Assembly: GCF_000367345.1 (NCBI RefSeq)
Contig: NZ_BARE01000010.1
Span: forward strand, 1-64,000
Source: Sphingobium xenophagum NBRC 107872
GTDB lineage: Bacteria; Pseudomonadota; Alphaproteobacteria; Sphingomonadales; Sphingomonadaceae
DNA length: 64,000 nucleotides
Direction of reading: 5' to 3'
Position numbers and translations under genes: made by a program. Each line of letters starts with the position of its first letter. Position 1 is the stretch's first letter. This document shows, piece after piece, positions 14 to 60,838 of the stretch. The notes under the pieces were generated by a model. The model did not search any database. It worked only from the letters and a program-made list of their open reading frames with translations, and was not told where the DNA came from.

Positions 14-69
14 ATCCCGCTTCTTCTGTGGCTCGCGGAGAAAAGCGGGATGCCGGGTCAAGCCCGGCA
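14..69. repeat. REP-like palindromic repeat at window start
   Basis: Two nested hairpins are visible: ATCCCGCTT at 14-22 pairs with AAGCGGGAT at 43-51, and TGCCGGG at 51-57 pairs with CCCGGCA at 63-69 around a TCAAG loop. It is followed by ATGACGAGATGGTGG, which also follows the repeat at 54078-54109, so the two belong to one family. It lies just past the 3' end of mnmA and could also end its transcript. The family is common in alphaproteobacterial intergenic DNA. Confidence 0.75.
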
Positions 70-86
70 TGACGAGATGGTGGAGG

Positions 87-40985: not shown

Positions 40986-41972
40986 TTATTCGGGCCGCAA
41001 CGGACGCGCGAGCAGCGCGTCGATCACGGTGCCGAGCGGTGCAGCGTCGGCCAGCAGGGCGCAGACAGCTTCGACCACCGGCATTTCGACCCCTGCCGCG
41101 CGCGCCGCATCGCGCAGCACCGGGGCGGTAAACGCGCCTTCGGCCACGGTACGGCGGTTGGACAGGAGCTCAGCGGCGCTACGTCCTTCGCCCAGCCCCT
41201 TGCCCAGCGAGAAGTTGCGCGAATTGGTGGAGGAACAGGTCAGCACCAGATCGCCCAGCCCCGATAGTCCGGCCAGCGTCTCCGCCCGCGCCCCGCGCGC
41301 CAGGCCAAAGCGCGTCATTTCGGCAAAGCCCCGGCTGATCAGCGCCGCGCGGGCATTAAGGCCCAGACCCGCGCCGTCCGCCACGCCACAGGCGATCGCC
41401 AGCACATTCTTGACCGCGCCCCCAATTTCCGCGCCGGTCACGTCGTCGGACAGATAGGGCCGGAACGCCGGGCGGGCAATCCGTGCCGCGAGTTGCGCGC
41501 CCAGCACGGCATCGTCGCACGCCAATGTGATCGCGGTCGGCAAGCCTTTGGCTACTTCATGGGCGAAGGTCGGGCCGGACAGGACGGCGATGGGCGACGT
41601 CGGCTGCACGGCGCGCGCCACTTCACCCATCAGCAGGCCGGAGCCGGCCTCGATCCCCTTGGAACACAGGACCAGCGGCACACCGGCTGGAGCCTGACGG
41701 ACGACATCGCGCAGATGTTGCGCCGGGCTGACGACCAGCACCATGTCGCAATCGCCAAGGTCGGCCATCGCGCCGGTCGCCCGGATCGACGGGGCCAGCT
41801 TGATACCGGGCAGATAGAGCGGATTTTCCTGCCCGCCATTGATCGCGTCGACCACTTCGGTCTCCAGCGCCCACAGCGTCACGGCCGGCCCGTCGGCGGC
41901 GAGCAGCTGCGCCAGCGCCGTACCCCATGCGCCGGCTCCGATGACGCCCGCCTTCATGCCTTGCCCATTCAT
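40986..41972 (-). CDS. gpsA: glycerol-3-phosphate dehydrogenase [NAD(P)+]
   Basis: A 328-residue enzyme that reduces dihydroxyacetone phosphate to glycerol-3-phosphate for phospholipid synthesis. The Rossmann motif is [12 protein letters not shown]. The catalytic Lys-containing motif is [13 protein letters not shown], and [11 protein letters not shown] and GPTFAHEVA are typical. The start (MNGQGMKAG) overlaps the tsaD stop as ATGA, so the pair is coupled; the longer frame to 42122 lies inside tsaD and is rejected. Confidence 0.96.
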
Positions 41973-52933: not shown

Positions 52934-53030
52934 CCGTTCGCCCTGAGCGAAGTCGAAGGGCACCACCGAACGGAGTGAGGTGCCTTCGCTACGCTCAGGG
53001 CGGGGGCTTCGACAGGCTCAGCCCGAACGG
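52934..53030. repeat. compound inverted repeat element
   Basis: CCGTTCGCCCTGAGCGAAGTCGAAGG at the left and CTTCGACAGGCTCAGCCCGAACGG at the right are mutually complementary, with a second hairpin (CACCACCGAACGGAGTGAGGTG) between. It belongs with the copy at 11313-11356. It occupies most of the rplT-lysE gap and may limit read-through. Confidence 0.8.
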
Positions 53031-53066
53031 ATTTGGGGTTGGCCGGACATCAAAAGGACCAACCCG

Positions 53067-53681
53067 ATGTCGTTGCATCTCTGGTGGCTATATGTGACCG
53101 CCGTGTTCCTGATCTCCGCCACGCCGGGGCCGAACATGCTGCATGTGATGACGCAGAGCATTGCCCATGGCCCGCGCCGAGCGCTGGCGACCATGGCGGG
53201 TCTGATGAGTGCGGTGCTGCTGTGCCTGATCGCGTCGGCGCTGGGGCTTGGGGCGTTGCTCAAGGCTTCGCCGCGCCTCTTCGACGTGCTGCGCTATGCC
53301 GGGGTCGCCTATCTGGTCTGGCTGGGGATCAAGGCATGGCGCGCGCCAGTCGGCCTTGCCGCCACCGCCGCGCCCGCACGGTCCCATCATGCGCTTTATG
53401 CGACCGGGCTTTTGACCGGATTGTCCAATCCCAAGCTGATCATCTTTGCGGCGGCCCTGTTTCCGCAGTTCATCGACACAGACCGTCCGTTCGGGGTGCA
53501 GCTGGCGATCCTGGTGGTCAGTTTCGTGGTGATCGAAAGCTTCTGGTACAGCATTTACGCGCTGGGCGGGGTCAAGCTGGCCCGCTGGCTGGAGCCGGTG
53601 AACCGCCAGCGCCTGTTCAACCGGGCGAGCGGCGTGATGTTCGTAGGCTTTGGCGGCGCATTGCTGGGCGCGCGGGCGTAA
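53067..53681 (+). CDS. LysE/RhtB family amino-acid exporter
   Basis: A 204-residue membrane protein with six predicted helices. The N-terminal signature TAVFLISATPGPNMLHVMTQ and the internal NPKLIIFAAALFPQF are diagnostic for LysE/RhtB. The start at 53067 (MSLHLWWLYV) is chosen because upstream in-frame codons lie inside the repeat element. Substrate (an amino acid or derivative) is unknown. Confidence 0.9.
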   Translation: MSLHLWWLYVTAVFLISATPGPNMLHVMTQSIAHGPRRALATMAGLMSAVLLCLIASALGLGALLKASPRLFDVLRYAGVAYLVWLGIKAWRAPVGLAATAAPARSHHALYATGLLTGLSNPKLIIFAAALFPQFIDTDRPFGVQLAILVVSFVVIESFWYSIYALGGVKLARWLEPVNRQRLFNRASGVMFVGFGGALLGARA

Positions 53682-53697
53682 GCCCTTCTGTATCCAG

Positions 53698-53729
53698 CGT
53701 CATCCCCGCGAATGCGGGGACCCATCTCC
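53698..53729. repeat. REP-like hairpin, left copy next to GIY-YIG gene
   Basis: The core CCCCGCGAATGCGGGG (53704-53719) folds as a perfect stem with a GAAT loop, followed by ACCCATCTCC. It aligns with the reverse complement of the copy at 54078-54109 over almost its whole length. It ends 10 bases before the GIY-YIG start codon. Confidence 0.85.
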
Positions 53730-53739
53730 GGCGGTGTGA

Positions 53740-54066
53740 ATGAAGCGCGAGATCAGCCCATCGGTGTATATTCTGGCGAGCCGCAGGAACGGCACATTAT
53801 ATACCGGCGTGACGGTCGACCTTGTAAAGCGTCTCTATGAGCATCGAAACGGCTTGATCGACGGCTTCACCAAAGACTACGGCGTGAAACGTCTTGTTTG
53901 GTTCGAGCCGCATGACCGTTTGGAAAGTGCCATCCTACGTGAAAAGCGGATCAAGAAATGGAACAGGCAATGGAAGATCGGGCTGATAGAAGCGGAAAAT
54001 CCCGATTGGGATGATCTGGCATTGGGCTTTGGCTTTGAGCCATTGCCCTCCCTACGCAGCGACTGA
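53740..54066 (+). CDS. GIY-YIG nuclease superfamily protein
   Basis: A 108-residue single-domain GIY-YIG protein: VYILASRRNGTLYTGVT carries the motif pair (YIL and YTG). The catalytic Arg is in DLVKRLYEHRNG. Conserved VKRLVWFE and the Glu in ESAILREKRIKKW follow. Single-domain members are found near short palindromic repeats in many genomes and their role is unknown. No clear ribosome-binding site precedes the ATG, which lies just outside the left REP-like hairpin, while the stop lies 11 bases before the right one. The gene and its repeats together form a 412-base unit. Confidence 0.92.
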   Translation: MKREISPSVYILASRRNGTLYTGVTVDLVKRLYEHRNGLIDGFTKDYGVKRLVWFEPHDRLESAILREKRIKKWNRQWKIGLIEAENPDWDDLALGFGFEPLPSLRSD

Positions 54067-54077
54067 CCGAAAGGTCG

Positions 54078-54109
54078 GGAGATGGGTTCCCGCTTTCGCG
54101 GGAATGACG
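54078..54109. repeat. REP-like hairpin, right inverted copy
   Basis: GGAGATGGG is followed by TTCCCGC (54087-54093), loop TTTC and GCGGGAA (54098-54104), then TGACG. A second small hairpin (GACCGAAAGGTC, 54065-54076) overlaps the GIY-YIG stop. It is an inverted copy of 53698-53729 with a few substitutions, some compensatory within the stem. Confidence 0.85.
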
Positions 54110-54130
54110 AGATGGTGGTGACGAAGATTT

Positions 54131-55222
54131 ATGACAGACATTAGCGCATTGAAAGCCGGGCTGATCGCCGACATTGATGCCGCAGACACGCTGGACGCGG
54201 TGGAAGCGCTCCGTGTGGGCGCGCTGGGCAAGAACGGGGTCGTGACCGGGCTGCTCAAGACGCTGGGGGCCATGTCGCCGGACGAGCGGCTGGAAAAGGG
54301 GCCGCCGATCCAGGATCTGCGCGAATCCGTGACCGCCGCGATCGTCGCGAAGAAGGCGGCGCTGGAGCAGGCGGCGCTGGATGCGCGTCTGGCGTCGGAA
54401 AAGATCGACATGACGCTGCCCGCCGATGTGGGGCCGCAAGGGTCGGTGCATCCGGTTTCGCAGGTGATGGACGAACTGGCGGAAATCTTCGCGGACCTGG
54501 GATTTTCGGTCGCGACCGGGCCGGAGATCGAGGACGACTGGCATAATTTCACCGCGCTCAACATTCCTGAGACGCATCCGGCGCGTGCGATGCACGACAC
54601 ATTCTACTTCCCCGACGAGGAAGGCCAGAAACGGATGCTGCTGCGCACCCATACATCGCCAGTGCAAATTCGCACGATGATGACGCAGGAGCCACCGATC
54701 CGCATCATCGCGCCCGGTCGTGTCTATCGCAGCGACAGCGATGCCACCCACACGCCGATGTTCCACCAGATCGAGGGGCTGGTGATCGACAAGGGGATCA
54801 CGCTCGGCCATCTCAAATGGACGCTGGAGACCTTCCTGAAGGCCTTTTTCGAGCGCGAGGATATCGTGCTGCGGCTGCGCCCCAGCTATTTCCCCTTCAC
54901 CGAACCCTCTGTCGAGGTCGATGTCGGCTATACGCTGGTGAATGGCCAGCGCGTGATTGGCGGCGACGGCGATGCAGCGGATGGCGGCTGGCTGGAGGTG
55001 CTGGGCAGCGGCATGGTGAACCGTCGCGTGATCGAGGCATGCGGACTGGACCCTGACGAGTGGCAGGGCTTTGCCTTTGGCACCGGGGTCGATCGCCTCG
55101 CCATGCTCAAATATGGGATGAACGACTTGCGTGCCTTCTTCGACGGCGACCTGCGCTGGCTCAAACATTATGGTTTTTCGGCGCTGGACGTACCCACGCT
55201 GAGCGGGGGAGTGGGCGCATGA
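54131..55222 (+). CDS. pheS: phenylalanyl-tRNA synthetase alpha subunit
   Basis: A 363-residue class II catalytic subunit. An N-terminal coiled coil (residues 1-90) leads to the catalytic domain with [15 protein letters not shown], motif 2 in [19 protein letters not shown] and motif 3 in [16 protein letters not shown]. It pairs with PheT encoded directly downstream, whose ATG overlaps this stop. The start at 54131 follows the right REP-like repeat. Confidence 0.97.
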
Positions 55223-60806: not shown

Positions 60807-60838
60807 CATAGTGCTCCCGCGCTGGCGGGAGCACTATG
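60807..60838 (+). terminator. perfect hairpin after ilvE
   Basis: CATAGTGCTCCCGC and its exact complement flank a four-base loop, giving a 14-bp stem; a short T-containing stretch (CTATTT) follows. It likely ends the ilvE message. Confidence 0.75.

Follow-up and report, generated by a model that had tools for sequence, protein, structure and literature searches.

The present analysis concerns a stretch of 64,000 nucleotides from Sphingobium xenophagum NBRC 107872 (contig NZ_BARE01000010.1, positions 1 to 64,000, hereafter the window), in which a small gene for a single-domain GIY-YIG nuclease lies between two inverted hairpins of the repetitive extragenic palindrome (REP) type. This module represents one copy of a cassette delimited by REPs: a CGTC-type REP, the GIY-YIG gene and an inverted CGTC-type REP. 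A first-pass annotation had proposed an inverted hairpin pair around a 108-residue GIY-YIG gene at 53698-54109, and the repeat search along with a PF01541 match bore this out. The parts of the module are given below; genomes and loci of our collections are cited by G and L numbers where needed.

53698..53724, plus strand: left CGTC-type REP, CGTCATCCCCGCGAATGCGGGGACCCA, with tag CGTC, 8-nt stem arms, a 4-nt loop and the tail CCA towards the gene
53725..53729, plus strand: TCTCC extension inward of the left REP
53740..54066, plus strand: single-domain GIY-YIG nuclease gene, 108 aa (open reading frame list; PF01541)
54078..54082, minus strand: inverted copy of the TCTCC extension, inward of the right REP
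54083..54109, minus strand: right CGTC-type REP, in opposite orientation to the left REP, CGTCATTCCCGCGAAAGCGGGAACCCA

The left REP ends 15 nt before the ATG and the right REP begins 16 nt after the stop codon; the distances of 10 and 11 bases given earlier hold once the shared inner TCTCC is counted in the repeat. A 28-mer consensus of the window REPs, with at most three mismatches allowed, matched exactly twice in the window and never in 100 dinucleotide shuffles, and no Rfam family reached its gathering score in 53500-54300. The window REPs resemble the CGTC REPs of Di Nocera et al. 2013 (PMC3733652) in tag, stem (8-9 bp), loop (4-5 nt), CCA tail and arrangement as inverted dimers, although the outermost stem pairs are AT in that description and are mismatched in both window copies. 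A related repeat had also been reported at 14-69; the relation stands at the level of the CGTC superfamily, while the hairpin found there (47-74, minus strand, CGTCATGCCGGGCTTGACCCGGCATCCC) belongs to a different class and may be one half of a dimer truncated where the window begins.

The window protein matched PF01541 with 51.2 bits against a cut-off of 22.6, and no other family was matched; NCBIfam gave no family at E 0.001. In an alignment of 28 sequences Y10, Y21, R31 and H35 were invariant and E68 nearly so, residues which we take to be catalytic, and the protein shows the GIY-YIG fold with its conserved Tyr, Tyr, Arg and Glu. The AlphaFold2 model is a confident single domain (pLDDT 91.6, pTM 0.85). 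Its best fold matches in the PDB were BH0048 (UPF0213; 1zg2), followed by the GIY-YIG domains of Slx1 and UvrC, and 1zg2 alone passed E 0.001, by profile as well as by fold match. We know of no repeat association for these domains, which share the fold of the window protein. Slx1 acts on branched DNA, and the Slx1 and UvrC matches fit recognition of a DNA structure without proving it. No separate DNA-binding domain was found by domain search or in the structure model, and the domain search gave no transposase domain.

Repeats at related nuclease genes

The host genome (4.49 Mb, 138 contigs) contains 73 copies of the REP core pattern at up to two mismatches, against a single copy of the reversed control. 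It has 11 matches to PF01541, and a search at E 1e-20 gave seven genes of the subfamily of the window protein. Six of these seven carry the same repeat in both flanks (at least 17 of 20 bases), and the six boxed genes have six distinct repeats: CCCCGCGAATGCGG in the window, and CCCAGCGAAGGCTG, TGCTGAACTTGTTTC, ATCCTGACTTTCGTCAGGAT, GTGCTCCTGCGAACGCAGGA and GGTTCCCGCCTGCG elsewhere. The seventh gene reached a flank score of 15 and has an in-frame TGA. Among the host-genome loci L089-L128, 12 of 14 GTCA-tagged copies have a tail of the CCATCTCC type and 39 of 45 GTG-tagged copies (class B) one of the CAGT type. A palindrome at 60809-60836 of the window, AGTGCTCCCGCGCTGGCGGGAGCACTA, resembles the class-B REP core. 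REP-associated tyrosine transposases (RAYTs) were considered as mobilisers in this genome and set aside, as a search for the Y1 transposase (PF01797, E 0.001) gave no match.

Further we collected relatives by protein similarity alone, taking the best 80 of 182, which together with eight loci of the host genome made 88 loci. Within this best 80 the relatives from outside the sphingomonads, many of them metagenome-assembled genomes, span many phyla at 53-68% identity. CGTC hairpins were concentrated at the genes, with 122 in the 93,586 bp lying up to 400 bp from a gene compared with 14 in the other 393,609 bp of these loci, and 62 of the 88 loci had at least one hairpin within this distance. The subfamily was present at E 1e-10 in 84 of 299 sampled Pseudomonadota genomes. 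The 110 loci drawn from this sample, the stronger ones among the matches listed, had 164 hairpins in the 94,857 bp up to 300 bp from a gene and 29 in the remaining 113,324 bp; 65 loci had one within 300 bp. When two collections were pooled to 195 loci, in which some genes may be counted double (the L051 and L163 proteins are identical), at least one hairpin lay within reach in 136 and on both sides in 96, and the CCA tails faced the gene in 70 of these 96. It should be noted that L001-L003, which belong to other GIY-YIG subfamilies, were excluded from the 195-locus count onward, and that the minus-strand host-genome loci L003-L006 stood in contig orientation, with upstream and downstream swapped, in the 88-locus and 195-locus counts and in the 22-gene test given below.

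A test that presumes no REP family asked for the same repeat (at least 17 of 20 bases) in both flanks, using one collection from which L284 was dropped as a duplicate. Such a repeat was found for 139 of 187 subfamily genes, compared with 57 of 306 when the flank was paired with that of another gene in the same genome and 162 of 1870 when the pairing was across genomes. The REPs are palindromic, so the test tells that the same repeat lies on both sides and not how it is oriented. At shifted places such a repeat turned up in 0 of 430 and 1 of 204 cases, whereas the genes themselves gave 55 of 80 and 37 of 51. An association of the repeat with GIY-YIG genes had been named beforehand as the check on the first-pass annotation, and by these counts it is very strong, within the sphingomonads as well as beyond them. 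In four more genomes of the same genus we saw REP-like sequence on both sides of all 14 strong subfamily genes when read by eye, one of them being damaged and one having tails that point outwards; the 14 were taken from 23 matches, the rest being seven weak ones (E 1e-14 or worse) and two of G131.

Several more distant loci are worth describing. In a 2.17-Mb record of Neisseria gonorrhoeae, listed among plasmids, a subfamily gene (L160, 3001-3267) lies amid CGTCATTCCCGCGCAGGCGGGAATCTAG repeats, which fit dRS3. A GIY-YIG gene of Sinorhizobium meliloti (L159, 3001-3258) stands between two similar large palindromes, presumably RIME-like elements, and in Azospirillum lipoferum a full REP dimer stands on either side of the gene, in the interval from sufB to sufC. 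One gene of Rhizobium has a palindrome on a single side, about 200 bp off. Spread by phages was unsupported, as two phage records (from one phage) matched, at 38.6% identity.

The class of REP goes with the type of nuclease. For 22 genes in nine genomes the identity of left and right arms was 0.940 at the same gene and 0.762 when the other arm came from a different gene of the same genome; the L005 protein was taken from the wrong strand in this test and was right in the trees, and new loci served in the 187-gene test. For 119 genes of one collection the Mantel correlation between protein and REP was r=0.374, while permutation within genomes gave a mean of 0.196 and none of 1000 permutations was as high. 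The score used here also counts loop length and tail and admits the GTG tag, and is thus a different statistic from the earlier, smaller Mantel tests. On the protein tree the CTC tail was reached by 38 of 1000 within-genome shuffles and then by 19 of 2000; the trees for loop class and tail leave out the close Sphingobium copies L009-L019 and L021-L024 along with L004 and L006-L008. Among 21 genes from five genomes of the same genus, with REP classes assigned by hand and not blind, proteins of the same class in different genomes averaged 74.8% identity (26 pairs) compared with 51.7% for the other 141 pairs, and the nearest protein in another genome had the same REP class in all 18 informative cases, that is, where the class was present elsewhere.

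Unit boundaries and exchanged sites

Homology between copies at unrelated places ended at the REPs, in two classes and to within a few bases of the REP tags. In class E, positions 428-833 of L350 align with 1431-1821 of L367 over the cassette only (REPs 428-830 and 1431-1818), and positions 427-830 align with 960-1348 of L370 (REPs 428-830 and 961-1348). In class CTC, positions 523-901 of L267 align with 1426-1805 of L381 (REPs 525-899 and 1428-1803), and other CTC pairs gave shorter or split alignments with limits within a few bases of the same ends. In G009 class-A dimers recur at about 27 places, by our reading of the matches; the repeated unit measures about 90 bp and is delimited near positions 330 and 420 of L099.

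The cassette of the window is intergenic, with no intron or intein, and lies between the following two genes, which served as flanks in the comparison with empty sites.

52980..53681, plus strand: upstream neighbour (left flank), which we take to be a LysE-like transporter gene
54131..55222, plus strand: downstream neighbour (right flank), presumably pheS

We read this site in 30 of 61 genomes. A cassette was present in 14 of the 30 loci (gap of 431-493 bp) and a native gap of 65-87 bp in 13; one of the rest has a REP dimer of another class, and two have no LysE there. Two pairs of close relatives show 93-97% identity in LysE and pheS but only 71-72% in the nucleases; L133 and L136 are alike across the left junction and through the left REP core, and their divergence sets in just past this core. 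At a second site about 420 bp including the cassette are absent from G033 and G040, as read, and from G047, as judged from match coordinates, and G030 has a scar with CAGCATGACG. With the query for this site the cassette was found, as 1039-1427, once elsewhere in each of G009, G000 and G030. At the second site itself G000, G009 and G037 have a DUF559-like gene instead, boxed by a different palindrome. A third site holds a class-A dimer in the host genome and in G009, a CTC dimer in G020, a complete cassette of yet another class in G051 and another palindrome in G037. Empty-site polymorphism, the other check named beforehand, is thus present between species; among the matches listed for Sinorhizobium and Rhizobium plasmids there was no clean empty site.

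The GIY-YIG genes that recurrently occupy the rplT-pheS operon region in sphingomonads, namely L009-L029, L165, L273-L275, L278, L338 and L345, differ in nuclease and REP type. All loci named to a lineage come from sphingomonads apart from L021, whose label goes no further than Proteobacteria; the others are of the same family. The window copy is probably an old resident of this region with losses and swaps, and in sphingomonads it may be mostly inherited.

A candidate enzyme for CGTC REPs

On balance we think it probable that such cassettes are autonomous units resembling REPtrons, with the nuclease acting on its own REPs. The cassette would be the autonomous master form and REP dimers its non-autonomous derivatives, much as REPtrons and REPINs are for RAYTs. 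The nuclease may recognise its own REP as a hairpin or cruciform and cut near it, whereupon host repair or replication would copy the REP-bounded unit, or the dimer only, to a new place. With time the gene would decay and leave orphan REPs behind. As the main variant of this mechanism we consider homing through a double-strand break.

The analogy with REPtrons, suggested in the first-pass annotation, survived in part. A small nuclease gene between REPs, dimers elsewhere and a REP class tied to the enzyme are common to both, the RAYT side partly following PMC3733652, and in both the gene is flanked by REPs of a class dispersed in the genome. In favour of the analogy the REP class follows the nuclease type, units end at REP tags, and a dimer may stand where another species has a cassette. 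It is weakened by REP numbers that do not strictly track the gene and by the recurrent site of the window copy. The module is like a REPtron in its working and is still not one, as enzyme and REP tag differ: RAYTs are HUH Y1 transposases with GTAG-tagged REPs, whereas the module encodes a GIY-YIG protein matching PF01541 only and has CGTC or related tags.

The CGTC REPs are reported from five phyla and all alphaproteobacterial orders and include dRS3 of Neisseria and RPE-4 and RPE-6 of Rickettsia; in 2013 they were described as lacking a dedicated transposase and were left with no candidate enzyme (PMC3733652), whereas the present loci link a nuclease gene to them. In Neisseria such a gene sits among repeats fitting dRS3. 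It seems to us evenly balanced whether the CGTC superfamily, including dRS3-, RIME- and RPE-like repeats, has its so far missing dedicated mobilisers in single-domain GIY-YIG nucleases; these would then form hairpin-bounded mobile units that cross phyla, a REPtron-like lifestyle evolved with an unrelated nuclease. A literature search whose scope left out preprints and most subscription journals found no published tie of GIY-YIG to REPs in titles or abstracts among the matches listed. That the nuclease type goes with the REP class offers a concrete and testable candidate enzyme for orphan CGTC REPs. If true, the reading would also account for the multiple copies and variants of such small nuclease genes within one genome, and would extend the few proteins that spread bacterial repeats by a new class of enzyme.

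Several observations weigh against this view. The first within-genome Mantel tests, on a smaller set, were exceeded in 93 and 442 of 2000 permutations, and loop class did not follow the protein tree significantly (775 of 1000 within-genome shuffles), and coevolution by loop class was therefore rejected. Joint inheritance of gene and REP explains some of the class matching, because several pairs are syntenic orthologues, and 48 of the 187 genes were not boxed. Further, REP numbers do not strictly track a matching gene. G009 has many class-A dimers without the window-type nuclease, its best protein being 63.6% identical and having a REP variant with a similar core. CTC-class REPs for which the genes fetched included no intact one of matching type number 26 in G403, where a gene relic is flanked left and right by equally oriented REPs of another class, 92 in G369, where most of the copies listed end in the tail CGC or CAC, seven in G408, where a gene relic adjoins a REP, and five in G375, a genome 85% complete. 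One or two such REPs occur in G360, G366, G378, G386, G390 and G412; CTC-like repeats adjoin a gene in G000, G373, G384, G388, G396, G400 and G407. By hand count CGTC-1 REPs, a pattern that misses other REP families, were found in 49 of 84 gene-bearing and 57 of 215 gene-lacking genomes, a loose link in which the subfamily was missing at E 1e-10 from 57 of the 106 genomes that carry such REPs.

The sites add to these difficulties. The native sequence between LysE and pheS is replaced and not split, the second filled site has extra flank bases, and inspection by eye of the sites read revealed no target-site duplication; insertion was therefore not simple cut-and-paste. The window copy lies at a recurrent region, rplT-pheS, which holds 28 of 267 loci with the window included (many loci have short flanks), and as the site is recurrent, vertical inheritance accounts for much there.

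The alternative that fares best is a free-standing homing endonuclease, which would break a gene-less target such as a REP dimer or a bare intergenic site so that recombination copies the cassette in, the REPs serving mainly as homology for repair. We regard it as somewhat unlikely. GIY-YIG was first found in homing endonucleases (PMC1564403). I-TevI and its free-standing kin have the same domain, and selfish spread is a plausible role. The swap of payload between nearly identical flanks, with its boundary at the left REP, and the alternation of dimer and cassette at one site both suit this explanation. It sits poorly with copies at sites that share no flank beyond the REP tags and with a lone domain to which no separate DNA-binding domain was found attached. 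The module differs from these endonucleases in having no intron, intein or extra DNA-binding domain found, and in being bounded by type-matched repeats; a location in an intron or intein is not needed for free-standing homing endonucleases.

It is unlikely, in our judgement, that the protein is a domesticated enzyme like Slx1 or UvrC which serves the host by trimming or resolving the hairpins or cruciforms of REPs, or whose own regulation depends on them, the REPs being binding or regulatory sites that do not move at present. The recurrent rplT-pheS location in sphingomonads and the Slx1 and UvrC fold matches would agree with such a role, and RAYTs have been similarly domesticated. A host function is hard to reconcile with the 215 of 299 genomes that have no such gene at E 1e-10, with many paralogues of differing REP class, with relics and in-frame stops, and with empty sites and REP-bounded copies at unrelated sites.

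We find it improbable that the gene is cargo, merely captured by REP pairs which another enzyme moves. Any mobiliser would fit the empty sites and the REP-bounded ends, REP-rich genomes without the matching gene exist, and DUF559 genes boxed by other palindromes occupy the same site in three genomes. Against this, the host genome has no Y1 transposase match, and capture by chance would not repeat the same subfamily across phyla with the REP class following protein relatedness. Neutral clustering, in which REPs gather in intergenic space by short genes or serve as terminators and their pairing with the gene is without meaning, would agree with REPs lying mostly downstream of genes (PMC3733652) and was rejected as very improbable, given the near absence of boxed shifted places and left and right classes that match far more within a gene than between genes.

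DUF559 genes between other palindromes

The DUF559-like genes of the second site matched PF04480 with E 7.9e-24 in G000 and 2.6e-24 in G009, and the stretch in G037 is alike by eye. They point to a possible second pairing of nuclease and repeat. Ten relatives (L402-L411) were chosen from the top 20, with 40 plasmid records matched; the same repeat stood in both flanks (at least 17 of 20 bases) in 7 of 10 compared with 2 of 40 shifted places. These data hint at several small nucleases with palindromes of their own, and may point to repeated origins of REP systems, each from a different small nuclease. In L390 (G000, contig C102, about 40995 to 41481) the DUF559 gene is boxed by CCTCCCCGGAACGGGGAGG, and it is likewise boxed in L388 and L389.
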